Notes under the pieces: generated by a model | Seen by the model: only the letters and a program-made list of their open reading frames with translations | Databases searched by the model: none | What the model was told of the DNA's origin: nothing | Program-made: the position numbers and the translations under genes | Part shown: positions 3,454-24,123 of the stretch, piece by piece | How positions within the stretch are numbered: the first letter of the stretch is position 1 | How the letters are laid out: every line of letters starts with the position of its first letter | From: Halobellus litoreus | Lineage (GTDB): Archaea; Halobacteriota; Halobacteria; Halobacteriales; Haloferacaceae | NCBI RefSeq assembly: GCF_024464595.1 | Contig: NZ_JANHAW010000001.1 | Location: forward strand, 1,071,083-1,135,082 | Direction: 5' to 3' | DNA length: 64,000 bases

Positions 3454-3460
3454 TTTATTA
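3454..3460 (+). promoter_or_regulatory. TATA-like box for structured RNA copy A
   Basis: TTTATTA is centred 27 nt before the conserved GTGATCTGA at 3484. The other two copies of the RNA have TTTATATC and TTTATATA at the same distance, which makes this a credible promoter rather than a chance AT-rich patch. Confidence 0.65.
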
Positions 3461-3483
3461 CCCGGGACGAGGCCAGCAGCCCC

Positions 3484-3597
3484 GTGATCTGACAGCGACC
3501 TCGCGCCGTGTCGCGGTTGCTCGGCACAGCGGCGCGGGAACAGGGATACCGCACGACAGCGGGGTGTCCCAGAGCGCGTGCCGACTGTTCGCCAGAC
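3484..3597 (+). ncRNA. Candidate structured non-coding RNA, copy A of a three-copy family
   Basis: The segment begins GTGATCTGA. A 7-bp hairpin P1 pairs CGCGCCG (3502-3508) with CGGCGCG (3530-3536). A second hairpin P2 pairs GGGATACC (3543-3550) with GGTGTCCC (3563-3570). TCGGCAC in the P1 loop (3521-3527) is fully complementary to GTGCCGA (3578-3584), giving a possible pseudoknot. The tail GACTGTTCGCC is shared with the other copies. It lies between the rpoH promoter and the 3' end of pgi, running against pgi. No protein frame is conserved between copies. The family was not recognised as tRNA, SRP RNA, RNase P RNA or a C/D guide RNA. The 3' end is estimated from where similarity stops. Confidence 0.72.
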
Positions 3598-3646
3598 AAC
3601 GGTACGTCAGCGTCGACACGTCAGCCGCCCAGTCGTCGTCCGCGAG

Positions 3647-4939
3647 CTATTCGACGACGAGGCTCGTCCGCTCGTCGACGGCCTCCGCCTCCTCGAAGTC
3701 GCCGCCGCCCAGCAGGCCGCGGGCCGCCTTCTTCCCCCACTCGACGGCCGGCTGCGTGAACGTCGAAACCGCCGCGAGCTCGCCGTACAGGACGCACGCG
3801 GCTTCCATCTCGTAGAGCAGCGAGCCGAGGCTGTACTCGTCGACGGCGTCGATCTCGACGCGGATCGCCGGGACGCCCGACTCGACGAGGCTGGCCTCCG
3901 TCGCCTCGAACTCGGCGTCGAGCAGGTCGCCGAGCGAGGACCCGCCGAGGTACGACAGCCCGTCGAGGTCGGTCTCGGGGATCGGCCGGTCCGAGTAGTT
4001 GCGCGGCCGAACGAGCGTCACGAGTTTGTCGCGGGGGCCGGCCCGGTACAGTTGCAACTGCGAGTGCTGATCCGTGGCGCCGAGCGCCCGAGCGGGCGTC
4101 TGGCCGAGGCCGTCCTTCCCGAGGCTCTCCGCCCAGAGCTGCGCGAACCACTCGGCGAACGTCTCCAGGCGCTCGGCGTACGGCATCATCGCGTTCGTGA
4201 GCGCGCCCCGGCCCGCGAGCGCGTACGTCGTCGCGCCGTAGGCGTACGCCGGCGTCTCGAACAGCGATCCGGAGAGGCCGTCGGCGGCGTCCGCCGCGCC
4301 CGTTCGGATCGCCTCCAGGTCGTGGCCCTGGATCGCCGCCACCGCCAGGCCGACCGTCGAGAGCGCCGAGAACCGGCCGGGGACGCCGTCCGGGACCGAC
4401 AGCGAGGGGAGATCGTGCGTCGTCGCGAGCGACCTGAGGTTCCCGGACTCGCCGGTCGTCACGAACGTCCGCTCGGTCCAGTCGACGCCGGCGTCGGTCA
4501 TCGCCTCGCGGACGACGAGGAAGTTCGCGAGCGTCTCCGCCGTCGTCCCCGACCGGGAGACGACGTTGACGACTGTCCGGTCGAGCGGGAGCGAGTCGAG
4601 CAGTCGCGAGACGTGCGCGGGATCGACGTTGTCGAGGAAGTACGCCTCGGGGTCGTCGGGGCCGGCGAGGGCGTCGGCGAACGTCGCCGCACCGAGGGCG
4701 CTCCCGCCGATGCCGACCGTGAGCACCGCCTCCGCGTCCTCGAACGGAGCGACCGCGGCGCGGATCGCGTCCAGATCGACCGTGGAGGGGAGGTTCAGCG
4801 CCTCGTAGCCGTGTTCGTGAGCGTCGCGGCCGGCTTCGATCCGCTCGTGAGCGGCCGCTATCTGGTCGTCCAGCCGCTCCAGCGACTCCCGGGAGACGCC
4901 GGGCGTCGCGTCGAGTGAACTGCCGAGATCGACGTGCAT
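3647..4939 (-). CDS. pgi: Glucose-6-phosphate isomerase
   Basis: This cytosolic 430-residue enzyme interconverts glucose-6-phosphate and fructose-6-phosphate. It has two sugar-isomerase folds: VGIGGSALG at about 75-83, SRSGTTAET at 128-136 (phosphate-binding SIS motif), ATDQHSQLQLY with a catalytic-type His, and the C-terminal family signature QPAVEWGKKA at about 396-405. The length matches the shorter PGI form of haloarchaea and Gram-positive bacteria. It starts at ATG 4939-4937, since MHVDLGSSLDA matches the family start. It stands alone and faces the structured RNA copy A tail to tail. Confidence 0.96.
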   Translation of the reverse strand: MHVDLGSSLDATPGVSRESLERLDDQIAAAHERIEAGRDAHEHGYEALNLPSTVDLDAIRAAVAPFEDAEAVLTVGIGGSALGAATFADALAGPDDPEAYFLDNVDPAHVSRLLDSLPLDRTVVNVVSRSGTTAETLANFLVVREAMTDAGVDWTERTFVTTGESGNLRSLATTHDLPSLSVPDGVPGRFSALSTVGLAVAAIQGHDLEAIRTGAADAADGLSGSLFETPAYAYGATTYALAGRGALTNAMMPYAERLETFAEWFAQLWAESLGKDGLGQTPARALGATDQHSQLQLYRAGPRDKLVTLVRPRNYSDRPIPETDLDGLSYLGGSSLGDLLDAEFEATEASLVESGVPAIRVEIDAVDEYSLGSLLYEMEAACVLYGELAAVSTFTQPAVEWGKKAARGLLGGGDFEEAEAVDERTSLVVE

Positions 4940-5058
4940 ACCTCGCTAACGACGGTCCGCGACGAAAAAGCGGTCGGTCTATGGATCGAGGTGCGCAGAC
5001 CCGAGGCCCACAGCCAGCGACCGGTTCGTTCAAACCGTCTCGCGTCCAACTCCAATCG

Positions 5059-5592
5059 ATGGCATCCGGCTACGACGGCGTCTTCGGCGCGTTCCCGTAC
5101 GCGTTCCGCTCCAGCGAGTCGCGGCTGTTCAAACTGTACGTCGTGGCGAGCGCGCTCGCCATCGGACTCATCGCGCTGTTCGTCGGCATCGCGGTCGTCG
5201 TGCTGATCGGTCAGACGGCCGCCGTGCAGGGCGGCTCGCTCACGCTGTCGCGTGCGTTCTACATCGTTGTCGGACTGCTGGTCGTGTTGCCGGCGATCGC
5301 GCCGGTCCTGATCGTCGCCCGTCGCCGTCGACGGGAGGTGGCGTCCTCGTCGCGTCACGAGGCGGCGCTCGCGGCCGCCGGGTTCGTCTTCCTCCTCTCG
5401 CTGTATCTCGGCCTGGTCGCGTCGATGCCGGAGACGTTCGTGCTCGACGGAGAGACGGTGACGCGCCCGCAACCGAGCGGCCTCCTCGGACCGCTGATCG
5501 CGGGCTTGTACGCGATCCCGCCCCTGTTCTCGTGGACAGTTCCGCTCGTCGGAGCGCTGCTGGTCGGCCTGGCGCACCGGCTCTTCCGGTGA
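5059..5592 (+). CDS. Small integral membrane protein of unknown function
   Basis: The 177-residue protein starts at ATG 5059 (MASGYDGVFGAFPYAFRSS). The frame stays open further upstream, but that part is not membrane-like and overlaps the region upstream of pgi. Four hydrophobic segments are visible at about residues 28-50, 63-85, 98-118 and 140-172, separated by short charged loops such as RRRRREVASSSRHE. There are no catalytic motifs. The gene lies divergently from pgi and upstream of a conserved acidic protein and secFD. The short N-terminal FGAFPYAFRSSESR stretch looks like a conserved haloarchaeal family, but I cannot name it. Confidence 0.78.
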   Translation: MASGYDGVFGAFPYAFRSSESRLFKLYVVASALAIGLIALFVGIAVVVLIGQTAAVQGGSLTLSRAFYIVVGLLVVLPAIAPVLIVARRRRREVASSSRHEAALAAAGFVFLLSLYLGLVASMPETFVLDGETVTRPQPSGLLGPLIAGLYAIPPLFSWTVPLVGALLVGLAHRLFR

Positions 5593-5662
5593 ACGGGCGT
5601 CCTCGCGAGCGGCGCGTTCGCCGACGAAACCCGCAAGTGCGCTGACCGACTACGGCGCGCCA

Positions 5663-6190
5663 ATGACTGATGCCGATCACGACGCCGACGGGCCGGACGA
5701 AGCGAGCGCCGCCAGCGACGAGAGCGAGCGGGTCGAAGGGACGTTTCTCGTGACCGCCGCCGAAGCGGATTCGGCGGTGCTCAAGGACGTCGAGAGCGGG
5801 CAGGTTCACACGCTCTCTTCGAACCCCGGTGTCGAGTGCGACGACGTCGTCGAGGGCGTCGTCGCCCCCGATCCGCCGCTGAACGTCTCGTATCAGCTCG
5901 TGGAGACGCACTCGCGCCGCTCGCTGTCGGTCGAGCGGAGCGACGAACCGCCGACGGCGCACTCGAAAGAACTCGCCGCAACGCAGGACGTGGGCGGTCT
6001 CACCCGCGAGGAGCGCGCCGGAACCGGTGAAATTCACGTGATCACGGTCCCGGAAGACGGCACTCGGACAGCCGTCGACGACGTGCTCGAAGACGAGGAA
6101 CAGTTGCGCTCGCGAGCGGCACGGCTCGGCGTAAACCGGGTCGAGATTCGCTCGTCACCGGGTGTGCTCTCGGTTCGGTATATGCCGTAG
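5663..6190 (+). CDS. Conserved haloarchaeal acidic protein (DUF5812-like)
   Basis: This 175-residue soluble protein has a disordered acidic N-terminus (about 1-25), then a folded region from EGTFLVTAAEADSAVLKDV onward that suggests a small beta-rich domain (GQVHTLSSN, GVVAPDPPLN). Its C-terminal region is GEIHVITVPEDGT to SVRYMP. From memory it resembles haloarchaeal DUF5812 proteins, which have no known function. It ends 101 nt before secF on the same strand, but a separate TATA-like box precedes secF, so co-transcription is uncertain. Confidence 0.75.
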   Translation: MTDADHDADGPDEASAASDESERVEGTFLVTAAEADSAVLKDVESGQVHTLSSNPGVECDDVVEGVVAPDPPLNVSYQLVETHSRRSLSVERSDEPPTAHSKELAATQDVGGLTREERAGTGEIHVITVPEDGTRTAVDDVLEDEEQLRSRAARLGVNRVEIRSSPGVLSVRYMP

Positions 6191-6261
6191 GACAGCAGTT
6201 CGATGCCCGTGCACGCGAAGCCGGGTTGGGAGGTCACCGCGCATAGCCGAGCATAAGAAGG

Positions 6262-6267
6262 CTTATT
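6262..6267 (+). promoter_or_regulatory. TATA-like box of secFD
   Basis: CTTATT lies 25-30 nt before the secF ATG at 6292, which would give a leaderless or nearly leaderless transcript, common in haloarchaea. Confidence 0.4.
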
Positions 6268-6291
6268 CGGCGCGGCTCTCCACCGGAATCT

Positions 6292-7173
6292 ATGGTCGAG
6301 TTTACGGTACCGGAAGTCGATTACACCCGGTACACGAACCGCCAGCTCGCGGCGATCCCGCTCGCCGTGCTGGCGGTCGCGCTCCTCATCATCGCGGGCT
6401 GGTTCGTGATGACCGGTTCACCGGTGAACCAGGGCATCGCGTTCACCGGCGGAACGGAAGTACAGGTCGCCATCGACGGACCGCAGGGAGAGGCCGAACA
6501 GCAGATCCGCGCCGCGTTCTCCGCGGAGCCGGAGTCGATCAGATCGGTCCCGGCACAGAGCGTCTACGTCGTGACGTTCCAGTCCGAAACGGGATCCGTC
6601 GGGGCGACGGAGTTGGAGCAACAGGCCGAAGCCGCCGGACTCGACGTCCGGTCGATATCGACCGTCTCAGCCAGCTTCGGGGGCGATACGCAGACCCTCG
6701 CACTCGGCGGGCTCGCAGTCGCGTTCCTCGGGATGAGCGTGCTCGTCTTCGCGATGTTCCGCGTGTTCGTCCCATCGATCGCCGTCGTCATCTCGGCGTT
6801 CTCGGACATTATGATTCCGCTGGCGTTGATGAACGTGCTCGGGATCGAACTGTCCCTGGGAACCGTCGCGGCGCTGCTGATGCTCATCGGGTACTCCGTC
6901 GACTCGGACATCCTCCTGAACAACCACATCCTCCGCCGCTCGGGTGACTTCTACGAGTCGACGTACCGGGCGATGCGGACCGGCGTGACGATGACGCTGA
7001 CGTCGATCGTCGCGATGGTCGTGATGACGATCACGGCGACGCTGTTCGGCATCCAGCTCCTGGCGGCGATCGGAACGGTGCTCGTCTTCGGACTCGCGAC
7101 CGACCTTATGAACACCTATATGTTGAATCTGAGTCTGCTTCGCTGGTACAAGTTCGAGGGGGTGAACCGCTGA
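6292..7173 (+). CDS. secF: Protein translocase subunit SecF
   Basis: SecF works with SecD as a membrane motor that helps complete protein export through SecYEG. The 293-residue protein has an N-terminal membrane segment (about 20-40), a first extracytoplasmic domain with GTEVQVAIDGPQGE, and a cluster of five hydrophobic segments in the second half. The transmembrane-4 region carries GYSVDSDILLNNHILRR, the archaeal version of the SecF motif with acidic residues in the membrane. It overlaps secD by one nucleotide (TGATG), so the two are translationally coupled. Confidence 0.95.
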   Translation: MVEFTVPEVDYTRYTNRQLAAIPLAVLAVALLIIAGWFVMTGSPVNQGIAFTGGTEVQVAIDGPQGEAEQQIRAAFSAEPESIRSVPAQSVYVVTFQSETGSVGATELEQQAEAAGLDVRSISTVSASFGGDTQTLALGGLAVAFLGMSVLVFAMFRVFVPSIAVVISAFSDIMIPLALMNVLGIELSLGTVAALLMLIGYSVDSDILLNNHILRRSGDFYESTYRAMRTGVTMTLTSIVAMVVMTITATLFGIQLLAAIGTVLVFGLATDLMNTYMLNLSLLRWYKFEGVNR

Positions 7174-8780
7174 TGGTCGACGTCCGCGACAACTGGCGGG
7201 TGTTCCTCCTCGTGATCTTCCTGCTCATCTCCGCGTTCGCGCTCTTCTCGCCGACGCTGGCCGCAGACGACGGCGGCGAGGGCGGCAACGTCGCGGGCGG
7301 GAGCAACGTGACCAACCTCCAGTACGGACTGGAGCTCTCCGGCGGGACGCGCGTCAGAGCGCCGCTCGTCGGCGTCACCGCCGAGGGCGTCGACTTCGTC
7401 GGCGACGAACCACGGACGGTCGAACAGAACGTCGCTTCCGAGCTCGAAAACGCGAGTCCGGCCGACGTCATCGCCCGTGCAGAGGCCCGACCCGGCGGGC
7501 AATCGACCGCACAGCCCCAGTCGAGCCCTGGCAACACCGTCGAGGTGACTGCCGAGGGAATCGCGACCGACGACCTCGCTGCCGCCCTCGACGCCGCCGA
7601 GTACGACCACGAGACGGTCCGAACGGGCGTCACGGAGACGACGCGGGAAGAGGTCGTCCGGATCCTCCAGAACAAGATCAACGAGGCCGGGCTCTCCGGC
7701 GGGACGGTCCAGCAGGTGACGACCGCACAGGGCGACAACTACGTCCTCGTCGAGGTGCCGAATCAGGACGCCTCGTCGGTCCGCGACCTCGTCGGCGAGC
7801 GCGGGACCGTCGTGATCGAGGCGTACTATCCCACCGAAAACGGCAGCAGTTACGCCCGCGACGTCGTCCTCCAGCAGGAGGACTTCCAGAGCATCGGGAC
7901 CGCCCAGGAGAGCGACGCCGGGGGCGCGTACGTCCCGGTGACGGTCTCTGAGTCCGTCGCGCCGGATTTCCAGACGGCGATGCAGGACACCGGACTCGCA
8001 CAGCCCGGCGGGACGCGATGTACGTATCAGGCCGACACCGAGAGCACGGAGCCGTGTCTCCTCCTCGTCGTCAACGGCGAGGTGACGAACGCCTTCGGGA
8101 TGAGCCCCGGACTGGCCGATAGTATGCGAAGCGGCGAGTGGGCGGGCAACCCCGTCTTCCAGCTGCAGACCACGAACGTCTCGGAGGCCCAGGAGGTCTC
8201 GATCAACCTCCGCGCCGGTGCCCTCCCGGCGCAGCTTGACTTCTCCCGTGAGAGCGGCGGAACGACCTCCTACATCTCCCCCTCGCAGGGTGCGGACTTC
8301 CGGTTCAACTCGCTCCTGACGGGGATCATCGCCGTCCTCGCGGTCAGCGGCACGGTCTTCGCCCGCTACAGGGACGTTCGCGTCGCCGCGCCGATGGTCG
8401 TGACCGCGCTCTCGGAGGTCGTCATCCTCCTCGGGTTCGCGGCCGGGATCGGCTACCCGCTGGACCTGTCGGTCATCGCCGGCTTCATCGCCGTCATCGG
8501 GACCGGCGTGGACGACCTCATCATCATCGCCGACGAGGTGATGGCCGAGGGGCAGATCGACTCCAGACGCGTCTTCCAGTCGCGCTTCAGGAAGGCGTTC
8601 TGGGTGATCGGCGCGGCGGCCGCAACGACGATCATCGCGATGTCGCCGCTGGCGATCCTCTCGCTCGGGGACCTGCAGGGCTTCGCCATCTTCACCATCC
8701 TCGGCGTCCTCGTCGGGGTGCTCATCACCCGGCCGGCGTACGGTGACATCCTCCGGTCGCTGACGACGGTCGACCGGTAG
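7173..8780 (+). CDS. secD: Protein translocase subunit SecD
   Basis: This 535-residue partner of SecF has one N-terminal membrane segment, a large extracytoplasmic region (about 30-370) and five membrane segments at the C-terminus. Recognisable features are LQYGLELSGGTRV near the start of the first external domain, the repeat-like VRILQNKINEAGLSGGTVQ segment, and AVIGTGVDDLIIIADE in the fourth membrane helix with the conserved acidic pair. The order secF then secD with a 1-nt overlap supports one transcript. Confidence 0.95.
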   Translation: MVDVRDNWRVFLLVIFLLISAFALFSPTLAADDGGEGGNVAGGSNVTNLQYGLELSGGTRVRAPLVGVTAEGVDFVGDEPRTVEQNVASELENASPADVIARAEARPGGQSTAQPQSSPGNTVEVTAEGIATDDLAAALDAAEYDHETVRTGVTETTREEVVRILQNKINEAGLSGGTVQQVTTAQGDNYVLVEVPNQDASSVRDLVGERGTVVIEAYYPTENGSSYARDVVLQQEDFQSIGTAQESDAGGAYVPVTVSESVAPDFQTAMQDTGLAQPGGTRCTYQADTESTEPCLLLVVNGEVTNAFGMSPGLADSMRSGEWAGNPVFQLQTTNVSEAQEVSINLRAGALPAQLDFSRESGGTTSYISPSQGADFRFNSLLTGIIAVLAVSGTVFARYRDVRVAAPMVVTALSEVVILLGFAAGIGYPLDLSVIAGFIAVIGTGVDDLIIIADEVMAEGQIDSRRVFQSRFRKAFWVIGAAAATTIIAMSPLAILSLGDLQGFAIFTILGVLVGVLITRPAYGDILRSLTTVDR

Positions 8781-8836
8781 GACCCGGGGTCGACCTCGCG
8801 CGACCGCGAATCCCACCCTACAGGAATAGGCGACTG

Positions 8837-8844
8837 TTTAAATA
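8837..8844 (+). promoter_or_regulatory. TATA-like box before the small DUF7511-type gene
   Basis: TTTAAATA is a good haloarchaeal TATA match. A start site would fall near 8866, leaving a leader of about 60 nt before the ATG at 8928. Confidence 0.5.
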
Positions 8845-8927
8845 CGATACCGCGACAACGTCGAGGTGTACCGGGCGACGACCGAAGCCGCCCCGCCGTC
8901 GGAACACGGCGGACGACGAGACTCACG

Positions 8928-9152
8928 ATGGCCACCGATACAAACCTCCCCACCGACGCCCCGCACGCCGACGCTGACGCGCCGCACGTCGGCGACGCCC
9001 GCGAGCAGGTCCTCCTCGCGCGGGTCGAGGAGTACGACGACGACCCCGACGAGTGCACGATCTATCCGGCGAACGCGACCGCGACGGAGCTCCCGACGAC
9101 GTGGGTCACCGCCGAAGAGGGGTCCTTCGTCTCGCTGGACGAGATGCGCTGA
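8928..9152 (+). CDS. Small acidic haloarchaeal protein (DUF7511-like)
   Basis: The protein has 74 residues, with a disordered first third (TDAPHADADAPH) and then a compact conserved part containing ARVEEYDDDPDECTIYP and TTWVTAEEGSFVSLDEMR. From memory this pattern (YDD-PDECTIYP followed by TTW-A---FV-LD-MR) is typical of haloarchaeal DUF7511 proteins, whose role is unknown. It has a clear upstream TATA-like box and stands alone, convergent with rnhB. Confidence 0.75.
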   Translation: MATDTNLPTDAPHADADAPHVGDAREQVLLARVEEYDDDPDECTIYPANATATELPTTWVTAEEGSFVSLDEMR

Positions 9153-9194
9153 TCGGCGGTCGTCGCTCCTCTGTCCTCCCGGAAGCCGTCCCGA

Positions 9195-9872
9195 TCAGAA
9201 CTCCGAGAGCCCGGACTGCTCGGCGGCGGCGAGCACGTCCGCCGACGTCGACCACGACGCCCTGGCGCAGTCGGGGAGTTCGCCCGTCGCGGCGACGTAC
9301 CGGCGGAGGAAGTCCCGCGTCGTCGGGTCGCTCGGGTATCCGCTCCCGACCGGACCGAACTCGGCGTACTCCTCGTCGAGCGCGTCGATCCGGGCGTCCC
9401 GCCGGACCTTCGCGACGACCGACGCGGCGGCGACGAGCGGATACGACTCGTCGGCGCCGTGCTCGGCGTTGACGGTCACAGTGGCCTCCGATCCGGCGTC
9501 AGCGAGGCCCTCCCGAACGCGACGCGCGAACCGCGACTCGCTGACGTCGCCGGCGTCGGCGACGACCGCGTCGCCGTCGCGGGCGACCGCGGCGACGGCC
9601 TCGGCGTGCGCCGCCACGGTGAGCGTGTTCATATCGGTCTCGGGATCGTCGATGCGATCGGTCGAGACGACCGCGACGCCGATCGCGATGTCGTCGCGGT
9701 CGCGAATCGTCTCGGCGATCGACTCCCGTGTGGCGGGCGACAGCCGCTTGGAGTCGTCGACGTCGTCCGGGAGCAGTCCCGGCGGCGCGCGCACCGCCGC
9801 GGCGACCATCGGCCCGAGGACGGGACCCTTGCCAGCCTCGTCGCTGCCGATTTTCGCTTCCCCGGCGGTCAT
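9195..9872 (-). CDS. rnhB: Ribonuclease HII
   Basis: RNase HII cuts the RNA strand of RNA-DNA hybrids and starts removal of ribonucleotides built into DNA. The 225-residue protein shows the DEAGKG motif at 11-16 with the first two catalytic acids, a third acid in AVVADAGDV, and a fourth in the ESYPLVAAASVVAKVRRD region. The start ATG overlaps the pus10 stop by 4 nt (ATGA), so rnhB is translated from the same message as pus10. Confidence 0.95.
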   Translation of the reverse strand: MTAGEAKIGSDEAGKGPVLGPMVAAAVRAPPGLLPDDVDDSKRLSPATRESIAETIRDRDDIAIGVAVVSTDRIDDPETDMNTLTVAAHAEAVAAVARDGDAVVADAGDVSESRFARRVREGLADAGSEATVTVNAEHGADESYPLVAAASVVAKVRRDARIDALDEEYAEFGPVGSGYPSDPTTRDFLRRYVAATGELPDCARASWSTSADVLAAAEQSGLSEF

Positions 9873-11230
9873 TCCTCGGAGGGGGTGCCGTCGTCGGCGG
9901 GATCGCGGTCGTCAACCGACGCGGTATCGCTCGCGGAGTCGACCCGCTCGTCGCGGAAGAACGACTCGTCCTCGAACGGTTCGTCCTCGCCGTAGACGCC
10001 GACGACGTCGAGGGCGGTCACCTCGGCGTCGACGTCGAGCAGTCCCGCGAGACTCGGGTTCGTCCGTCCCTCGTCGCCGGAGATCAGTTCCTTGATGTAG
10101 AGCCCGCCCGCCCCGTGGATCTCGACGGTCGCGTGGGTCTCGTCGTCGAGTTCGCCCGCAGTCTCGTAGACGTCCCGCTCCCGGGTCAGACTCGCTCGGC
10201 GGTGATCCACCCGATGGGGCGTGTACTGCTCGATGGTCGCGCCCTCGAGTTCGGCGAGGGCGGCCGCGAGGCCGTCGGCGTCGACCGGACCGCCGAACGC
10301 CACCTCGGCGCGGTAGCGCTTGGAGGCGTCGAGGCCCTTGACCCGCTCGACCATCTCGTAGTCCGCGAGGCGGAGCCCCTCGACTTCGACGCGGCCCTCG
10401 GCGAAGGCGTTGATGTCGCCCTCCAGGCGCTCGACGTCGACCCGGCGGCGACGCGGCTCCATCACTTCGATGACGAACGGGCGACCCGTGCCGAGCATCC
10501 GCGCGTCGACGTCCTCCCTCCCAGCGCCGTGGAACTTCGTGTCGGTGCCGTCCATCACGTCGCGGACGACCGGCGCGGTCAGGCCCTCGACGCTGTCCTG
10601 ATAGAGATAGCCCGTCCCGTCGCACTTCTCGCAGGGCTGTTTGCCGATGTATCCCGACCCCTCGCAGTCGTTGCACGGCCACTCGGTCTGCGGGATGTCG
10701 CGTTCGAGCTTTCGATACCGACCGTAGACGAACGCCGAGTGGACGTCGACCTCGACGAGGTCGGCTTCGAGATCGAGCGTGAACTGCACGTCCGGCCGTC
10801 CGAAGTCGACGGTCGTGTCCGTGAGTCGACCGACGCGCTTGCCGACTTCGCGGTTTAACTCCGATTTGAACAGTTCGCCCGCGTCCTCGTCGAGGTCGGC
10901 CCCCTCGCGGAGCAGGATCTCGTTCTCCTCGATCAGCGGCGGCGTTCGCGTGCCGACCTGGTACGTCTCGAACTCGACGTCCTCGACTTCGGCCGCGCAG
11001 CGTTCCGCCCACTCGTCGAACCGGGCGCAGAGCCCCTCGCACACCCAGCACTCGGTCGTGTCGGCCGGTTCGTACGGTTCGTCGTCGTCCAGCGCGGCGG
11101 CGATGCGGAGACTTCGGCCCCGCTCGGCGTTCGTCAGTCCGTGGCTCCGATCCGCGAACGCTCGCCCGAGGCAGGCGTCACAGACGGGGTCCTGCGCGGC
11201 GAGCGCGCGGGCGTCGGCGAGAATGCTCAT
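9869..11230 (-). CDS. pus10: tRNA pseudouridine synthase Pus10
   Basis: Archaeal Pus10 makes pseudouridine at tRNA positions 54 and 55 in the T loop. The 453-residue protein starts at ATG 11230-11228 (MSILADARALAAQDPVCDAC), because the open frame upstream lacks family sequence. It has N-terminal zinc-binding pairs CDAC and CWVC, then a four-cysteine knuckle CNDCEGSG...CEKCDGTG. The catalytic motif is GREDVDARMLGTGRP, with the Asp of VDAR as catalytic residue, and IEQYTPHRVDHRRA lies near the C-terminus. The trmY gene at 16060 encodes the enzyme that methylates the pseudouridine-54 made here. Confidence 0.95.
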   Translation of the reverse strand: MSILADARALAAQDPVCDACLGRAFADRSHGLTNAERGRSLRIAAALDDDEPYEPADTTECWVCEGLCARFDEWAERCAAEVEDVEFETYQVGTRTPPLIEENEILLREGADLDEDAGELFKSELNREVGKRVGRLTDTTVDFGRPDVQFTLDLEADLVEVDVHSAFVYGRYRKLERDIPQTEWPCNDCEGSGYIGKQPCEKCDGTGYLYQDSVEGLTAPVVRDVMDGTDTKFHGAGREDVDARMLGTGRPFVIEVMEPRRRRVDVERLEGDINAFAEGRVEVEGLRLADYEMVERVKGLDASKRYRAEVAFGGPVDADGLAAALAELEGATIEQYTPHRVDHRRASLTRERDVYETAGELDDETHATVEIHGAGGLYIKELISGDEGRTNPSLAGLLDVDAEVTALDVVGVYGEDEPFEDESFFRDERVDSASDTASVDDRDPADDGTPSEE

Positions 11231-16656: not shown

Positions 16657-16660
16657 GAGG

Positions 16661-17274: not shown

Positions 17275-17281
17275 TTCTGCC

Positions 17282-17392: not shown

Positions 17393-17450
17393 TTCGACAT
17401 CTGCGCCGGCCCACTTCTCCCGCATTCCGCACGACTACGAGCGAAGCGAC
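17393..17450 (+). repeat. Diverged direct repeat of the tRNA-Pro 3' end and its flank (att-like scar)
   Basis: This 58-nt stretch repeats 17254-17312. It holds the T-loop GTTCGA, ATCTGCGCCGGCCCA (3' end of tRNA-Pro) and the beginning of the stem-loop flank with GAGCGAAGCGA, with roughly a dozen differences. A truncated second tRNA 3' end downstream of an intact tRNA gene is the classic mark left by site-specific integration. No integrase gene is seen between the copies, which are only 139 bp apart start to start. Confidence 0.75.
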
Positions 17451-17471
17451 CGTACGTGAACCGTCCGGAGA

Positions 17472-17813
17472 TCACAACACTGCAGCGACGATCACGGCCC
17501 CGTTCCACACCGTGATGAGGAAGCCGAGTGCACACAATCCGAGCGGGACGCCGAGGTTGTGTGGTTCGGGAACGAGTCGATAGAGCCCGTAGAACCCACA
17601 GATGACGGCCAGTTTGAGCGGGACGATCAGCACCAGACCGTGAGCGTTGATGAGCCAGGCGGCGACCGGACTGGCCTCTACGATCGTCTGCAGTTGGAGA
17701 CCGACGAGCGTGGTGACGGTATCACCGACGAGAAAGAACGCGATGGCACCGTACCACCACAGCCGCGTGTGTGCTTCGAGAATCTCGACGGACGAATCGA
17801 AATCCGAGAGCAT
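17472..17813 (-). CDS. Small membrane protein, DUF5658-like
   Basis: The likely protein of 113 residues begins MLSDFDSSVEILEAHTRLWWYG, with three hydrophobic segments. AIAFFLVGDTVTTLVGLQL followed by EASPVAAWLI resembles the haloarchaeal DUF5658 pattern (D-TT--GL ... E-P) as I remember it. The frame extends upstream to 17873, but those 20 residues (MATIFVRLQTDSPERRPSKT) look less family-like, so the start is uncertain. Codon use and GC are slightly less extreme than in the neighbours. It sits directly beside the duplicated tRNA-Pro end and could have arrived by integration there. Confidence 0.7.
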   Translation of the reverse strand: MLSDFDSSVEILEAHTRLWWYGAIAFFLVGDTVTTLVGLQLQTIVEASPVAAWLINAHGLVLIVPLKLAVICGFYGLYRLVPEPHNLGVPLGLCALGFLITVWNGAVIVAAVL

Positions 17814-17952
17814 AGTCTTGGAAGGCCGTCTTTCGGGGCTGTCGGTCTGAAGGCGAACGAAGATGGTCGCCAATTTCCGACCGTGAAAGTGTATTCTCAG
17901 CGACGAGTACTAAGCATTGGGATCGGGTACCGAAACTGCGGACCGAGTGCGG

Positions 17953-19044
17953 CTACGACGAGAGGAGATACACCACGAGGTACGCGACGGCGGAAAGGGT
18001 GAGTGTCGTCAGGCCGGTTAGCGTCCCGATGGTGGCTCCGAAACGGTGTCGGCCCCAACCCAGCGACCCCGAGGATCCAGACGTGGGGGGAGATCGGCCG
18101 TTCGCACGTCCGGCCCAGAGACCGACAGCGACCGCCAACGGCACGATAGTGAATCCGAGCCAGTGGGCGTCGGTGATCGTCGGTCTCGGGAGGACGAAGA
18201 CCGCGACCCCATAGGAGAGACCCGCCGCTGATCGGACGCCGATCACGTCCCGAAGGCCACTTAGTCCGCCATCGATGCCGACGAACTCGCCCGCACCGAG
18301 TCGTGACGCGACGGCGATCCCGAACCACACAACCGCGAGTTCGACGAACAGGACCGCGAGGATCTCGACCGTCGGATCAGTCGCGAGGCTGACTCGCTCG
18401 GTGAACAACGGCGGACCGACCGGTGAGAGCATCGGCGGTGGAACGGCCAGGAAGACGTCGCCGAACGGATGCGTGAGAAATCCGGCACCTGCCGCTACGG
18501 CCAGTGACGCGGTCGAAGCGCTCGTCCAGCGACCGACCAGAGCGCCGGCGACACCGACGGCCGAGAGGTAGGCGGCGGCCACGGTCGCGGCAGTCCTGTC
18601 GAGACTCTGCCAGAATGCCGGGAGTAGAACCGCAATGCCGACCGCAGCGGCGAGCGCGGCGACCACCGTTCCGAGAGCGTTTCGCGCGTGGACCGAGAGA
18701 ACGGGCGAGGACGCCGAACTTCGGAGAACGGACCGTGAGTCCGCCCTGACGAGCGCAGCGGCTGCGGCGAAGACGAGCGTCGCGACGACACCGACGGGAA
18801 GTGGGTGCGTGACCACCCGGTGGACGCCGTTGGCGACCCCCCAGAACGGTTCCCACCCGAACGGGGTCCCGGTACCGACGGCGACCGCGTAGGTCGCCGC
18901 CGCGTAGACGACGTCGAGGTCGGGGAGCAGGCTTGCGAGCGCTGCGACCCCGCCGAGGATCAGTGCGGTACGGTCGTCGGTACCGACCCGCCGAGCCCCC
19001 CAGCCGACGAGAGCGAACGCGAGGAACTCGTGGCCGACGAACAT
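17953..19044 (-). CDS. Membrane-bound metal-dependent hydrolase (DUF457/YdjM-like)
   Basis: The 363-residue protein has eight or more hydrophobic segments. The N-terminus MFVGHEFLAFALVGWGARR with LASLLPDLDVVY and later NGVHRVVTHPLPVG gives the His/Asp pattern of the YdjM/DUF457 family, described as membrane-bound metal-dependent hydrolases. LTHPFGDVFLAVPPPMLSP further on repeats the H/D pattern. The exact substrate is unknown. It lies downstream of tRNA-Pro and its duplicated end, on the strand opposite to the tRNA. Confidence 0.85.
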   Translation of the reverse strand: MFVGHEFLAFALVGWGARRVGTDDRTALILGGVAALASLLPDLDVVYAAATYAVAVGTGTPFGWEPFWGVANGVHRVVTHPLPVGVVATLVFAAAAALVRADSRSVLRSSASSPVLSVHARNALGTVVAALAAAVGIAVLLPAFWQSLDRTAATVAAAYLSAVGVAGALVGRWTSASTASLAVAAGAGFLTHPFGDVFLAVPPPMLSPVGPPLFTERVSLATDPTVEILAVLFVELAVVWFGIAVASRLGAGEFVGIDGGLSGLRDVIGVRSAAGLSYGVAVFVLPRPTITDAHWLGFTIVPLAVAVGLWAGRANGRSPPTSGSSGSLGWGRHRFGATIGTLTGLTTLTLSAVAYLVVYLLSS

Positions 19045-19208
19045 CGATCACGTCGGACCTCCCCGTCGGGGAGAATAGGTCTTCGGGTGTGAGTCCGTCG
19101 ACGGTCCAACGCGAAGGCAGTCGGGGTCCTGCGAAGAGCAGTCGGGCGCGGTGCGGGTAGGTTACCCTCGCCACGCGGACTTTTGTCGTCCCGGTCCGTA
19201 CCCCGAGT

Positions 19209-19610
19209 ATGAACGGAACGGCGATCGATCACGTCAAACTTCGAATCCCCGAGGACGGGATCGAGACCGCGCGATCGTTTTACCGCGATGCCCTCGGTTT
19301 CGGTATCGACGGGATGGACTTGTACGAGGCCGGCGAGAAACCGTTCTTCTCGGTTCGGATCGCTCCCGGAGCCGTCATCCATCTACAGCCGGACGCCACC
19401 GGCGAACGACCCGGAACCGACCGGTCCGGTTACGATCACGTCGCCATCCGCGTCGACGACACCATCGAGGGAATCGAGTCGGAACTGGACGACGCCGGCG
19501 TCGCGATCGACCGACGACTCGATCCGCTGGGAGCCACCGGAGTCGCCCCGGCGGTGTACGTCACCGACCCGTTCGGCTACCGGCTCGAACTGAAGGCCGA
19601 ACGGGAGTGA
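19209..19610 (+). CDS. VOC family protein (glyoxalase/dioxygenase fold)
   Basis: This 133-residue single-domain protein has paired beta-alpha-beta-beta-beta units: IDHVKLRIPEDGIETARSFYRDALGF in the first half and YDHVAIRVDDTIEGIESEL to PFGYRLELK in the second. Metal ligands of the family would be His of DHVK, His of DHVA and Glu of LELK. The substrate is unknown; such proteins serve as glyoxalases, dioxygenases or resistance proteins. It appears to be monocistronic. Confidence 0.88.
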   Translation: MNGTAIDHVKLRIPEDGIETARSFYRDALGFGIDGMDLYEAGEKPFFSVRIAPGAVIHLQPDATGERPGTDRSGYDHVAIRVDDTIEGIESELDDAGVAIDRRLDPLGATGVAPAVYVTDPFGYRLELKAERE

Positions 19611-19695
19611 CCCCGGCCGATTCGACGGCGACCCGTCTCCCCAACCCCGATATCGAACCGCTTTTCTCGTCGGTGGTGTTTGACCTATCCAATCG

Positions 19696-20991
19696 ATGCG
19701 TGCCCTGATTACCCGGGGTAGTGGCTCCCGATCCGGACGGCGAGCGGGCGCTGCACTCGTCGCGTTCGGCGTCCTCCTCCTCGTCACCTCGCTCGTCCTC
19801 GGCGCTGCGCTCGCGCCGGACGTCGGGTCCGCGGAAGACGGCGGAGCCCGCCAGACCCTCGTCGGATCGCAGGGCGGCGGCCCCGGGCTCCACGACCACG
19901 GCTCGGTCTACCTGCTCGACGGTCGCGAGACGGCGTGGCGAACGGGCGACACGGACAGCTACTTCGACGTGACGATGCTGGACAACGGCAGCGTAATGGC
20001 CGGCTTCATGGACGACGGCTACGAGGACTGCGGCCCCTACGAGTCGCCGTGTACCCACACCGGGTTCCGGCTCATCGATCCGAACGCCGACAGCGCCGCC
20101 GCTCCCGAGATCGAACACGAGTACTCCTTCCCGGTTCGAACTCGCGCCAACAGCGAAGTTCACGACGTGGAACGGCTCGACTCCGGCGAGTTCCTCGTGA
20201 GCGATATGGAGCACGAACGGATCTTCACGGTGAAAGACGGCGCGATTACCTGGCAGTGGAACGCCAGCTCGCGCTACGAGGCGCCCGACGACCCCACGCG
20301 GACCGACTGGCTCCACATCAACGACGTCGACGTCATCGGCGAGGACCGCTACCTCGTCTCCGTCCGCAACGCCCACCAGCTGGTGATCGTCGAGCGCGGC
20401 GAGGGCGTGGTCGAAGTCATCAACGGCGACGAGGCGACCACCGAGGGCGACCCGACGCTGCTCCGCCAGCAGCACAACCCGCAGTGGCTCGGCGAGGGCA
20501 GCGTCCTCGTCGCCGACAGCCACAACGACCGGATCGTCGAACTCGAACGGACCGACGGCGGCGACTGGGAGGTCGCCTGGGAGATTTACGCGGCCGAGGG
20601 CGTCAACTTCAATTGGCCGCGCGACGCGGACCGGCTCCCCAACGGCAACACGCTGATCACCGACTCGCTGAACCAGCGGCTCGTCGAGGTCGATCGAAAC
20701 GGCACGACGGTCTGGAGTTACGGGACGCCGCAGGTCCCCTACGAGGCCGAGCGACTGCCGGCGGGCGAGACCGTCGGCGGCGTCTCTTACGCCGACGGCG
20801 GCGACGAACCGACGACGATCGGAACCGGCTCCGACGTCCCGGTCCTGTCGTTCCTCCTCGTGATCTTCCAGACCGGGTTGCAGACGCCCTTCTGGTTCAC
20901 CGAAGTGCACGTCGCTGTGACGATCGTCTCCCTCCTGTCCGTCCTCGCCGGCGTCGGACTCGTCGTCCGCGATCGGCGTCGGCGACGGTAG
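19696..20991 (+). CDS. Arylsulfotransferase (ASST)-like beta-propeller membrane protein
   Basis: The 431-residue protein has an N-terminal hydrophobic anchor (about 20-45), a large extracytoplasmic repeat domain and a C-terminal helix (about 398-420) with an RDRRRRR end. Repeated blade-like motifs such as FDVTMLDNGSVMAGF, RLDSGEFLVSDMEHERIF, NAHQLVIVERG, GSVLVADSHNDRIVELER and RLPNGNTLITDSLNQRLVEVD fit the arylsulfotransferase/propeller family. The catalytic His of true ASST enzymes could not be assigned confidently, so the enzymatic role is an inference. Confidence 0.82.
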   Translation: MRALITRGSGSRSGRRAGAALVAFGVLLLVTSLVLGAALAPDVGSAEDGGARQTLVGSQGGGPGLHDHGSVYLLDGRETAWRTGDTDSYFDVTMLDNGSVMAGFMDDGYEDCGPYESPCTHTGFRLIDPNADSAAAPEIEHEYSFPVRTRANSEVHDVERLDSGEFLVSDMEHERIFTVKDGAITWQWNASSRYEAPDDPTRTDWLHINDVDVIGEDRYLVSVRNAHQLVIVERGEGVVEVINGDEATTEGDPTLLRQQHNPQWLGEGSVLVADSHNDRIVELERTDGGDWEVAWEIYAAEGVNFNWPRDADRLPNGNTLITDSLNQRLVEVDRNGTTVWSYGTPQVPYEAERLPAGETVGGVSYADGGDEPTTIGTGSDVPVLSFLLVIFQTGLQTPFWFTEVHVAVTIVSLLSVLAGVGLVVRDRRRRR

Positions 20992-21079
20992 CCGGGCCTC
21001 GGGCGGCGGGGCAGCGTCGCTGCCGCGGCCGTCCGACAGCGTCGCTGCCGGGTCCTCTGTCGACACCCCTCGGCCGAGT

Positions 21080-21196
21080 GTGATAGCGAACAGTCGGCAC
21101 CTGCGTCGACGACACCGCTCCGCAGTGCCGTCGCTCTCGCTCCCGCGTCGACGTGCCGAACACCCGCTGCCCGACGCGAGACGGCTCTCAGATCAC
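21080..21196 (-). ncRNA. Candidate structured non-coding RNA, copy B of a three-copy family
   Basis: Read on the minus strand it begins GTGATCTGA (21196-21188). P1 pairs CGCGTCG (21178-21172) with CGACGCG (21150-21144), the P1 loop holds TCGGCAC (21159-21153), and GTGCCGA (21100-21094) near the end is fully complementary to that loop. A 9-bp P2 hairpin (CGACGGCAC with GTGTCGTCG, one G-U) lies between. The tail GACTGTTCGC is shared with the other copies. In this copy GTGAT at the 5' end can also pair with ATCAC at the 3' end. It lies between the ASST-like gene and the Nudix gene. Confidence 0.72.
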
Positions 21197-21218
21197 GGGG
21201 GTGCTGGTCGCCCGGTAG

Positions 21219-21228
21219 GATATAAATC
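21219..21228. promoter_or_regulatory. TATA-like box for RNA copy B, possibly shared with the Nudix gene
   Basis: The plus strand reads GATATAAATC and the minus strand GATTTATATC. On the minus strand its centre is about 26 nt before the RNA start at 21196. On the plus strand it would give a start near 21249, 32 nt before the Nudix ATG. Confidence 0.6.
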
Positions 21229-21280
21229 TCCGCGACTGCGACACCCTCGATTTCTTGCCGATCCGGCGAGATGGTCCGAT

Positions 21281-21847
21281 ATGACCGACGACACGCGCGA
21301 AGACGAGTTGCGGTGGCGGACGGCGGACAGCGAGATCGACTACGCCTGCCCCGGCTTCGACGTCCGCCGCGACGACGTGGTCCTCCCGGACGGCACCGAG
21401 ACCGATTTTCACTACGTCGACGAACCGCCGGCGGTCGTCGTCCTCCCGTTCACGCCCGACGGCGACGTCGTGGTGATCGAGGAGTGGCGACAGGCCGTCG
21501 GGCGTGTCAACCGCGGACTGCCGGCCGGGAGCGCCGAGCGGGCGGACGACGGTCTCGCCGCGGTCGCCCGTCGGGAGCTGACCGAAGAGACGGGGTACGA
21601 GGCGGAGACTGTCGAGCGCCTGTTCGCCACCGAGCCCGCGAACGGACTGTTGAACAGCGTCCACCACTACTTCGTCGCGCGAGGGTGTGAGCCGACCGGA
21701 GCGCAGAACCTCGACTTCAACGAGAGCATCCGGGCGGAAACCGTCGACTACGACGACTTGCTCGAAGCCGTCCTCGACGGCGACGTCCGCGACGGTCGGA
21801 CGGTCGCCGGCGTCACCCGGTACGAACTCGCCGAGCGGTGGCGTTGA
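21281..21847 (+). CDS. Nudix hydrolase (ADP-ribose pyrophosphatase type)
   Basis: The 188-residue protein starts at ATG 21281 (MTDDTREDELRWRTADSE). It has the Nudix box core RRELTEETGY, with the metal-binding REL-EE intact, preceded by RGLPAGSAERADDG, where the first Glu of the consensus box is replaced by Asp or shifted. The N-terminal part (FDVRRDDVVLPDGTETDFHYV) and VVVIEEWRQAVGR resemble ADP-ribose pyrophosphatases. The likely role is hydrolysis of a nucleoside-diphosphate derivative. It is monocistronic. Confidence 0.9.
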   Translation: MTDDTREDELRWRTADSEIDYACPGFDVRRDDVVLPDGTETDFHYVDEPPAVVVLPFTPDGDVVVIEEWRQAVGRVNRGLPAGSAERADDGLAAVARRELTEETGYEAETVERLFATEPANGLLNSVHHYFVARGCEPTGAQNLDFNESIRAETVDYDDLLEAVLDGDVRDGRTVAGVTRYELAERWR

Positions 21848-21885
21848 CGGGTGAACTCAGACCCTCGGGGTGAGTCGAGCCCGAT

Positions 21886-22698
21886 TCAAAACGCGAGAAC
21901 GGCCTGCTGGAGCTGTTCGGCGTCCATAAACTGAAGCGTGACGTACAGCAGCGAGAACAGCGTCGCGTTGTACGCCCCGTGGATCAGCGCCGGCACGACG
22001 ATGTTGTCGGTGAGTTCGTACATCGTCCCGAACACGAGCGTCGGTAGGACGAGCACCGAGATGCTAACCAGTCGCGCCTGCGGCGCGCCCGACAGCGAGA
22101 AGAAGTGGATCGACGCGAAGATGAGGCTGGCGAGGAAGATGGCCACGGGCGCGGGGAGTGCCTCGCTCAGGCGGTTCTGGACCACGCCGCGGTACAGCAG
22201 TTCCTCGCCCGGTCCGATCAGGAGCAGCGACGCCGGGATCAGGAGGAGCAGGATCTCGGGGTTCTCCATCCCCATCTCGGCGGTGGTGTTGGGGGCGGGC
22301 TCGGCCCCGACCGTCGAGATGACGACCGACGCGAGCACGAGCAGCGCGAACGACGCGACGTAGCCCGCGACGACGAAGGCGACGTCGCGCAGCGACGGGA
22401 CGTCGATGCCGACGTAATCGAGTCCGAGACCGCGGTAGCGGAGATAGCCCAGCGCGACGCCGCCGAACCCGACCCCGGTTGCGAGCGCCAGCGAGATGAC
22501 GATGCTCAAGAGCGGAGTCACGGAGACGCCGGCGAGGAACAGTACGAGGACGGCCGCGCCGACGAGGAGCCCGCCGACGCCGATACCGACGACGGCGAGG
22601 AGGAGCGCCACGACGAGTGCGCGGAGGACGTCGACGAGCGGATCCGACGACGGTACTGAATCGCCCGCCCCGTCGACGACATCTGATTCGGAGGACAC
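21886..22698 (-). CDS. CPBP-family intramembrane metalloprotease (CAAX/Abi type)
   Basis: The 270-residue protein has about eight hydrophobic segments. The family motifs are in order: PGEELLYRGVVQ (EExxxR), FASIHFFSL (His motif 2) and PALIHGAYNAT (third motif). This arrangement marks the Rce1-like glutamic intramembrane proteases. The N-terminal 25 residues are acidic and cytosolic. The substrate is unknown: prenylated-protein processing, bacteriocin immunity or membrane protein turnover are known roles in the family. Confidence 0.92.
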   Translation of the reverse strand: MSSESDVVDGAGDSVPSSDPLVDVLRALVVALLLAVVGIGVGGLLVGAAVLVLFLAGVSVTPLLSIVISLALATGVGFGGVALGYLRYRGLGLDYVGIDVPSLRDVAFVVAGYVASFALLVLASVVISTVGAEPAPNTTAEMGMENPEILLLLIPASLLLIGPGEELLYRGVVQNRLSEALPAPVAIFLASLIFASIHFFSLSGAPQARLVSISVLVLPTLVFGTMYELTDNIVVPALIHGAYNATLFSLLYVTLQFMDAEQLQQAVLAF

Positions 22699-22793
22699 AG
22701 CCTACGTACGTGCTGGGGAGTCAAAATCCTTCGTCTCCCCCGACTCGTCTCGATCGCCGTGCTTCGTCTGATTTTCCTCCGGGCTCGGGTCGC

Positions 22794-23084
22794 TCAGATC
22801 AGCGTCCACGCGAAGTACAGGCCGCCGAGGGCCAGCGCGACGCCGACGACCTGCACGAGTCGTCGCCACCGCGTGGGAACGGCCGAGCCAGCGCCCGAGC
22901 CGTCGGAGTCGGATCGGCCGTCACCACCCGCCTCTGAGACGCCGTCCTCGCCGTATCGGCCGCGGCGGTCCTGCGGGAGTCGACCGGCGCTCTGCACCTG
23001 AACGATCGTCTCTGGAGCGGCCAGGAACAGGAGCCCCAGCGCGACCCCGAGGACGGCGGCCGCGAGCGTCCGAACGTCGACCAT
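22794..23084 (-). CDS. Small two-helix membrane protein coupled to htpX
   Basis: The 96-residue protein has a hydrophobic N-terminal helix (about 6-24, AAAVLGVALGLLFLAAPE), a charged glycine/serine/aspartate-rich middle and a C-terminal helix (about 76-94). Its ATG overlaps the htpX stop codon (ATGA), so it is translated from the htpX message. That suggests a helper or modulator of the HtpX membrane protease, but no domain is recognised. Confidence 0.75.
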   Translation of the reverse strand: MVDVRTLAAAVLGVALGLLFLAAPETIVQVQSAGRLPQDRRGRYGEDGVSEAGGDGRSDSDGSGAGSAVPTRWRRLVQVVGVALALGGLYFAWTLI

Positions 23085-23911
23085 CAGCCCCGGAGCCGCT
23101 CGATGCGCTTCTCCATCGGCGGGTGGGTCGCGAAGAGCCGCGCGAGGCCGCGCTCCTCGCCGAAGATGCAGAGCGCGTTCACCTGGGAGTCGACCGCGGA
23201 GTCCTGACTCCGCTCGTTGCCGCGGCTGATCTTCTCCAGGGCGCGGGCCAGGGGTTCACCGCCGCCGATGGCGTCGGCGGCGTCGCCGTCGGCCACGTAC
23301 TCTCGGTAGCGGGAGATGGCGAAGACGAAGAGCATCACGAGCATCTGGGTGATCTGGCCGACGACGATCGCGAGGAAGAAATCGGCGATGTCGTTGTCGC
23401 CGGTCAGGAGCACGGCCCACTGGGCGACGATGGCGACGATGGAGGCGACGCCCTGCCCGAGGACCATCATCACCACGTCGCGGTTGCGGATGTGCGCGAG
23501 TTCGTGAGCGAGCACGCCCTCGACCTCCTCGGGGTCCAGGCGTCTGAGCAGCTCCTCGCTCACCACGACCGTCCCCGCGCCTTTCCGCCCGACGGCGAAG
23601 GCGTTGGGGACACCCATCCGCGCGATCATCAGCCGGGGCTTGTCGATCCCCATCGACTCCGAGAGCGACTCGACGCGCCGGTGGAGGTCGGCGTAGCGGT
23701 CCTCCGGCAGGTCCTCGGCACCGACGCTCCGCAGCGCCATCCACTTGCCGACCTTGTACTGGACGCCGACGAAGGCGACGCTTCCGACGAGGATGAGCGG
23801 CAGCAGTCCCTCGCCGAACATCGCCATCAGCACCACGGCCGCGACGGCGTAGAAGGCGAACAGGATCGATCCGACGATCGCCATCCGCGCTTTCAGTCCG
23901 AGGTGTCGCAT
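23084..23911 (-). CDS. htpX: Membrane zinc metalloprotease HtpX (M48 family)
   Basis: HtpX degrades misfolded membrane proteins. The 275-residue protein starts at ATG 23911-23909 (MRHLGLKARMAIVG); the longer open frame upstream crosses the promoter of RNA copy C. It has two N-terminal helices (about 10-50), the zinc motif HELAH at 136-140, two more helices and the third ligand Glu in SRYREYVADGDA. The C-terminal LFATHPPMEKRIERL is the family ending. A small membrane protein follows with a 4-nt overlap. Confidence 0.95.
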   Translation of the reverse strand: MRHLGLKARMAIVGSILFAFYAVAAVVLMAMFGEGLLPLILVGSVAFVGVQYKVGKWMALRSVGAEDLPEDRYADLHRRVESLSESMGIDKPRLMIARMGVPNAFAVGRKGAGTVVVSEELLRRLDPEEVEGVLAHELAHIRNRDVVMMVLGQGVASIVAIVAQWAVLLTGDNDIADFFLAIVVGQITQMLVMLFVFAISRYREYVADGDAADAIGGGEPLARALEKISRGNERSQDSAVDSQVNALCIFGEERGLARLFATHPPMEKRIERLRG

Positions 23912-23967
23912 ACTGCGATTTCGTTGTCCGTCCGGACACAAATGCTCGGTGGTTCCAGCACGGCGAT

Positions 23968-23977
23968 TGTTTATATA
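23968..23977. promoter_or_regulatory. TATA-like box for RNA copy C, possibly shared with htpX
   Basis: The plus strand reads GTTTATATAC, a near-palindrome. On the plus strand its centre is about 27 nt before the conserved RNA start at 24000. On the minus strand it would place the htpX start site near 23947, 36 nt before the ATG. Confidence 0.65.
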
Positions 23978-23999
23978 CCAGTGCGCGGCCATCACCGCC

Positions 24000-24123
24000 G
24001 TGACCTGAGAACGGCACCGCGTCGTGCAGCGATTGTTCGGCACAACGACGCGGGAGACGGGCGACAACGACGGTGCTGTGGCGGCCGCCGTCGCGCGTCG
24101 CGAGCGGGTGTCGACTGTTCGCC
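24000..24123 (+). ncRNA. Candidate structured non-coding RNA, copy C of a three-copy family
   Basis: It begins GTGACCTGA. P1 pairs CGCGTCG (24018-24024) with CGACGCG (24046-24052), and the loop contains TCGGCAC (24037-24043). P2 pairs CGACGGTG (24068-24075) with CGCCGTCG (24086-24093) and is extended by an outer GCGAC/GTCGC pair. GTGTCGA (24108-24114) matches the P1 loop with one G-U pair. The tail is GACTGTTCGCC. The segment fills most of the gap between htpX and tgtA. No shared protein frame exists between copies. Confidence 0.73.

Follow-up and report, generated by a model that had tools for sequence, protein, structure and literature searches.

The 64,000-nucleotide (nt) stretch of Halobellus litoreus DNA analyzed here (NCBI RefSeq assembly GCF_024464595.1, contig NZ_JANHAW010000001.1, positions 1,071,083 to 1,135,082; hereafter the window) carries three intergenic copies of an RNA family without Rfam entry, which has dozens of copies per Halobellus genome and members in many haloarchaeal genera. 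Comparative sequence evidence establishes the family itself, a pseudoknot, the promoter geometry, selection for a stop at codon 3 and an intergenic context with mostly opposing neighbors; transcription, translation of a two-codon mini-open reading frame (mini-ORF), ribosome pausing or drop-off and a global regulatory effect are what we infer. A start codon, one codon, a stop and a tight knot suggest an RNA built for catching a ribosome for a single step. We consider it quite possible, if far from assured, that these are independent RNAs which engage ribosomes on a leaderless two-codon minigene set against a pseudoknot and work like the bar minigenes of phage lambda.

An earlier note on this DNA had reported three intergenic segments sharing a GTGAYCTGA start, a CGCGYCG hairpin with YTCGGCAC in its loop and a GACTGTTCGCY tail, each preceded by a TATA-like box. 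The alignment recovered all of these motifs in 3/3 segments at the positions claimed, with predicted start sites at 3484 (+), 21196 (-) and 24000 (+), and the box starts exactly 30 nt ahead of the shared G in 3/3 copies. Only three significant matches to a covariance model were found in the window (expectation values, E, of 2.8e-21, 3.1e-18 and 3.0e-17; next best 0.1); the window copies were among the sequences used to build that model, and the wider searches constitute the independent test. The composite pattern GTGAYCTGA-N20-45-TCGGCAC-N55-85-GACTGTTCGC occurs eight times in the genome and not once in the reversed control, which rules out chance, and the 13 stretches found with it in a collection of species all belong to Halobellus (13/13). 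From start to end of the conserved tail, the predicted RNAs measure 111, 113 and 125 nt (copies 1, 2 and 3). The reading of the segments as independent, promoter-driven small RNAs at unrelated loci appears sound, but its purely noncoding form overlooks that GTGAYCTGA reads as start codon, one codon and stop, a conserved mini-ORF. Likewise overlooked was the predicted pairing of the loop UCGGCAC with GUGCCGA just ahead of the tail, which makes the structure a pseudoknot.

The predicted fold is an H-type pseudoknot consisting of a 9-base-pair (bp) stem P1 and a 7-bp loop-to-tail helix, formed by seven bases of the loop (consensus XCGRCAC) and GUGYCGX' directly ahead of the tail. In 61 aligned copies from outside the genus, standard pairs occupy 98.5% of cells and double changes are seen at 16/16 pairs, comprising 9/9 of stem P1 and 7/7 of the pseudoknot helix. 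Double-change cells number 198, compared with 42 after shuffling and far lower values in slid controls. The alignment was made with a model lacking the pseudoknot helix, which is therefore supported independently of it; three pairs of this helix top all column pairs examined by mutual information. Within the helices, G-U occurs in 38 cases versus A-C in 5, indicating that the RNA is encoded on the strand as read. Compensation is also found among the orthologous copies between htpX and tgtA, where most species have the stem CGUCG/CGACG and genome G436 has CGCUG/CAGCG (numbered labels beginning with G and L are our internal names for sampled genomes and extracted loci, respectively). Linker lengths vary freely among copies. 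The variable linker of L092 (1464-1656) contains an inverted repeat, ATACTGATTACTCTC...GAGAGTAATCAGTAT, resembling a small miniature inverted-repeat transposable element (MITE) inserted in the RNA gene, and that of L090 (1554-1788) is much expanded by GTCGTCGCCGTAGGAGTCGACCGCGAT-like repeats, so that the search splits this copy into two matches.

The loop GCGR-NNGY and the tail CUGUUCGCYA are conserved yet unpaired, both being near-invariant, and conservation breaks off abruptly 3' of the tail. An extension of the pseudoknot helix by pairing loop GCGR with UCGC of the tail is feasible in most sequences and shows no covariation, and we do not claim it; pairing of the promoter-proximal GNGRCCA with the tail, suggestive in some copies, was dropped as the positions vary without compensation. 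We also dropped the idea that the tail mimics the 23S A-loop as it reads in E. coli: the only similar site in the 23S rRNA of this genome is TTGTTCGCC, an 8/9 match. An intrinsic terminator was rejected, as a T-run lies within 80 nt downstream of the tail in 0/45 copies of this genome and in 6/117 others.

Upstream, the promoter logo combines TTTATAT at -30 to -24, CGA at -22 to -20, GNGRCCA at -15 to -9, a pyrimidine at -1 and a purine at +1. This geometry fits a predicted transcription start at the first base of GTG (rarely ATG), and for predicted protein genes of the window, too, the most frequent distance from a TATA-like box to the start codon is 29-30 nt (8/13 occurrences). We collected 233 distinct copies, 226 of which are anchored on GTG or ATG without use of the stop. 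A stop stands at codon 3 in 220/226 (TGA 193, TAG 18, TAA 9), counts that come from related copies and are not independent events. Two of the six exceptions, L116 (GTG CCC GAC TGA) and L145 (GTG CAT CGA TGA), have one extra in-frame codon before the stop, and another is a spurious half-match. TGG at codon 3 occurs once (L241), the sole stop loss seen between orthologous loci.

At least six orthologous cases keep a stop while changing its type: TAA-TGA (L046/L009), TAG-TGA (L048/L012 and L085/L211), TGA-TAG (L028/L225), TGA-TAA (L022/L228), and TAA, TGA and TAG among the orthologues of L094, the orthology of L028/L225 and L094/L224 being based on one matched flank. These changes are spread over several genera and several loci, and codon 2 drifts; across the family it is diverse, mostly Thr, Ile, Arg or Ser. 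In copies where T is followed by purines, a G at position 9 occurs only together with an A at position 8 (12/12; Fisher p 8e-15, relatedness ignored). To swap one stop for another while retaining a stop is behavior to be expected of a reading frame and not of a plain sequence motif. Judged by these patterns, selection keeps the stop at codon 3. In the H. rarus orthologue of L046 (L009), GTGATCTGA is read where L046 has GTGATATAA. The spacer between the 16S and 23S genes (L269/L270, contig C9, around 2045) holds TCAGATCAC, a perfect 9-nt complement of GTGATCTGA; this candidate was dropped as probably fortuitous, such a match having a probability of about 3% by chance and not being expected for the other codon-2 variants.

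The distance from stop to stem P1 is constrained as well, at 7 nt in 47/61 copies and 6-8 nt in 60/61, and falls inside the 6-9 nt range known from viral recoding pseudoknots (PMC3835772). In a ribosome whose A site holds the stop, this spacer would put the first paired base at about the mRNA entry of the ribosome. The elements of the three window copies are collected in Table 1.

Table 1. Positions in the window of the promoter, mini-ORF, pseudoknot and tail elements of the three RNA copies.
Copy	Element	Positions	Strand	Remark
1	TATA box TTTATTA	3454..3460	+	begins -30 from predicted start site
1	promoter-proximal element GNGRCCA	3469..3475	+	-15 to -9, conserved
1	predicted start site and leaderless mini-ORF GTG ATC TGA	3484..3492	+	
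1	stem P1 5' arm CTCGCGCCG	3500..3508	+	pairs with 3530-3538
1	pseudoknot helix 5' arm TCGGCAC	3521..3527	+	pairs with 3578-3584
1	stem P1 3' arm CGGCGCGGG	3530..3538	+	
1	pseudoknot helix 3' arm GTGCCGA	3578..3584	+	
1	conserved 3' tail CTGTTCGCCA	3585..3594	+	conservation stops at its end
2	TATA box TTTATAT	21220..21226	-	
2	promoter-proximal element GNGRCCA	21205..21211	-	
2	predicted start site and mini-ORF GTG ATC TGA	21188..21196	-	
2	stem P1 5' arm CTCGCGTCG	21172..21180	-	pairs with 21142-21150
2	pseudoknot helix 5' arm TCGGCAC	21153..21159	-	pairs with 21094-21100
2	stem P1 3' arm CGACGCGGG	21142..21150	-	
2	pseudoknot helix 3' arm GTGCCGA	21094..21100	-	
2	conserved 3' tail CTGTTCGCTA	21084..21093	-	
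3	TATA box TTTATAT	23970..23976	+	
3	promoter-proximal element GNGRCCA	23985..23991	+	
3	predicted start site and mini-ORF GTG ACC TGA	24000..24008	+	
3	stem P1 5' arm ACCGCGTCG	24016..24024	+	pairs with 24046-24054; outermost pair A-G, non-standard
3	pseudoknot helix 5' arm TCGGCAC	24037..24043	+	pairs with 24108-24114, one G-U
3	stem P1 3' arm CGACGCGGG	24046..24054	+	
3	pseudoknot helix 3' arm GTGTCGA	24108..24114	+	
3	conserved 3' tail CTGTTCGCCA	24115..24124	+	

The family is much larger than the three copies the earlier note had counted. With a covariance model built on 21 Halobellus copies, the genome of the window yields about 50 (one of them, in L090, being matched as two halves), and twelve Halobellus genomes have 18-59 copies each; besides the window species, the named hosts are Halobellus rarus, rufus, captivus and limi. 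In an order-level sample, matches at E up to 0.01 occur in 114/293 haloarchaeal genomes, spread over 47/87 genera; by our count about 80 of the 114 have one below E 1e-4, and a few of the weakest matches are expected to be due to chance. With a second model, built from 59 diverse copies, the other matching genomes of the family sample have 1-29 copies. The homologues which the note had proposed to look for in Halobacteria are abundant and carry compensatory changes. Among 148 genomes of the phylum, no match was found outside the same family or order. Rfam 15, like the note, does not recognize the family: at the gathering score its only assignments in the window are tRNAs, and for six loci, each from another genome, no match covers the RNA even at a permissive E of 10. 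We found no description of the family in the literature searched, which comprised open-access papers only. A suggested housekeeping role is doubtful, as copies are gained and lost at orthologous sites of close species and many haloarchaeal genomes have no match. One copy is located on a Halobellus limi plasmid between the msrA and dihydrofolate reductase genes, where no annotated feature covers it, and among the megaplasmids of other genera that were searched along with it, clear copies are confined to Halobellus limi. Five genomes filed in the same genus (G060, G437, G439, G440 and G441) lack copies, and the first look gave very few candidates in them; L260 of G440, the only one of the five inspected, has 48.5% G+C versus 68% here. 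Either the family is absent from them or these genomes are too AT-rich for the model.

We propose that each locus is a stand-alone small-RNA gene, with a TATA promoter and GNGRCCA element, a minigene, a 6-8 nt spacer, an H-type pseudoknot and the fixed tail CUGUUCGCYA. Transcription would begin with the GTG at +1, as the promoter geometry predicts, and a ribosome would then bind the 5'-terminal start codon by leaderless initiation; 118 native GUG leaderless transcripts have been reported in Haloferax (PMC4983044). At most one peptide bond would be made before the ribosome stands at the stop with the pseudoknot at its mRNA entry, a step suggested by the selection on stop and spacing. By analogy with bacterial minigenes, termination or drop-off may then tie up ribosomes or the codon-2 tRNA (PMC8012679; PMC8708949). 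Dozens of copies would supply an RNA pool that transiently engages ribosomes and codon-2 tRNA and so acts in trans on translation. In its boldest form, namely that haloarchaea have a dedicated set of dispersed leaderless one-step RNAs, each with a promoter, on which ribosomes initiate, incorporate a single amino acid and halt at a pseudoknot, and which serve as a trans-acting buffer or brake of translation without described counterpart, this proposal is put forward tentatively.

Several observations weigh against such a minigene. Leaderless GUG was a weak start in Haloferax reporter tests, reaching 2.6% of AUG in one of them (PMC4983044), and in about 3% of copies the expected place is not occupied by GTG or ATG (it reads ATC, ATA or GTA, or the codon is shifted). 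The tail CUGUUCGCYA and loop GCGR are conserved as strongly as the mini-ORF, which leaves both unexplained. No common target or partner protein was identified. As main rival we consider a conventional trans-acting or protein-binding structured small RNA (sRNA) in which pseudoknot, loop GCGR and tail are the functional parts and the start-X-stop serves as a shield from translation of an RNA that begins with GUG by coincidence, or is a by-product. We rate it as possible, if somewhat less likely than the minigene. In its favor, loop and tail hardly vary, selection on the pseudoknot is very strong, and many sRNAs of Haloferax volcanii are ribosome-occupied without making protein (PMC12482152). A shield, however, explains neither the strict GTG/ATG at +1, since loss of the start would be the simpler escape from translation, nor the fixed distance from stop to pseudoknot. 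The family, the pseudoknot and the selected stop codon stand whichever of the two is right.

It seems improbable that the copies are a dispersed mobile DNA element of MITE or repetitive extragenic palindromic (REP) type whose spread, and not a function, explains their number. Up to 59 copies per genome would fit, as would presence and absence at orthologous sites: seven Halobellus genomes, this one among them, have the copy between htpX and tgtA, and four lack it with no remnant to be seen, which implies turnover besides descent. Two unlinked copies of this genome, in L040 (1501-1639) and L046 (1501-1622), are nearly identical in their 5' half (GTGATATAA and the stem), which looks like a recent duplication or gene conversion between copies. 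Against mobility as the sole explanation, compensatory changes and stop-to-stop swaps at orthologous loci reveal functional constraint, 30 locus pairs with both flanks orthologous retain copies, and each copy has its own promoter at fixed spacing in an intergenic position (of 79, one overlaps a weak predicted frame and one a gene end). IMG/VR viral contigs and phage records gave no family match. A transposon or MITE would be recognized by target-site duplication, terminal repeats or a transposase; the empty orthologous sites have no clean boundary by which to judge this. A mobile origin followed by the acquisition of function is possible, since the multiplication of copies lacks an explanation. 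The htpX-tgtA interval in L255 (G216), empty of the RNA, contains a further inverted repeat, CTATAGTAGCGTTTGCA...TGCAAACGCTACTATAG, perhaps from a MITE of another kind.

That the copies act in cis on the downstream gene, as leader, riboswitch or attenuator, is very unlikely, despite the frequency of H-type pseudoknots among riboswitch folds and the location of copy 3 about 105 nt ahead of tgtA, with which it shares its orientation. A riboswitch would be expected upstream of and co-directional with its regulated gene; the downstream gene opposes the RNA in 54/79 copies (p 0.0015). The strands of the upstream and downstream genes relative to the RNA are (-,-) in 36, (+,-) in 18, (+,+) in 13 and (-,+) in 12 of 79, so that both neighbors oppose it in 36 cases versus 13 in which both agree (p 0.0014). 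This bias argues against leaders and for stand-alone transcription units, and it largely refutes the cis reading. The neighbors are also unrelated (rpoH, pgi, an ASST-like gene, NUDIX, htpX and tgtA in the window, and elsewhere mixed as well). The gene context accordingly supports the earlier opinion that the copies do not exert cis control of neighbors. In L161, two members (363-458, - and 523-620, +) lie back to back about 65 nt apart and apparently share a divergent promoter region. Least credible is a readthrough element, in which the pseudoknot would stimulate decoding beyond the stop into a longer peptide: stop, 6-8 nt and H-type pseudoknot do resemble retroviral gag-pol signals (PMC3835772), yet the frame past the stop is no more open than the other two (of 124 copies from other genomes, 19 have an in-frame stop within the RNA, versus 11 and 11 for the other frames) and the freely varying linkers leave no conserved peptide, so readthrough is not the purpose.

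If ribosomes indeed read start, codon and stop, the minigene RNAs would have a single translation step as their 'product', a new way of translation control. As natural probes, they would also give unusually direct access to leaderless initiation, early drop-off and termination in archaea, and they may account for part of the puzzling archaeal small RNAs that occupy ribosomes without making protein.

The family shares features with several known systems. Box C/D and H/ACA guide RNAs are likewise small structured archaeal RNAs, and the 5' motif of the family contains GUGA and CUGA. Box C/D RNAs have a C box (RUGAUGA) and a D box (CUGA) near their ends; here CUGA is replaced by GUAG, GUAA and the like in 27 copies, as they use TAG or TAA as stop, the tail CUGUUCGCYA provides no C/D pair at the two ends, and there is no ACA tail as in H/ACA RNAs. 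Retroviral readthrough pseudoknots of the Moloney murine leukemia virus (Mo-MuLV) type similarly combine a stop, a short spacer and an H-type pseudoknot at the mRNA entry (PMC3835772); unlike them, the haloarchaeal RNAs have no conserved downstream reading frame. The H. volcanii sRNA_61, which is 111 nt long, abundant and ribosome-associated with no detectable peptide (PMC12482152), is similar in length to the family and a lead only. A further parallel is with lambda bar and other two-codon minigenes, which also consist of start, one sense codon and stop and cause peptidyl-tRNA drop-off and tRNA depletion to an extent depending on codon 2 (PMC8012679; PMC8708949). The start-sense-stop arrangement is found in 220/226 anchored copies here, in which translation and drop-off are presumed. 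Whereas bar minigenes are bacterial, led by a Shine-Dalgarno sequence and located inside longer transcripts, without a conserved pseudoknot and not as a family of stand-alone RNA genes, their haloarchaeal counterparts are archaeal, present in up to 59 copies and predicted to be leaderless.

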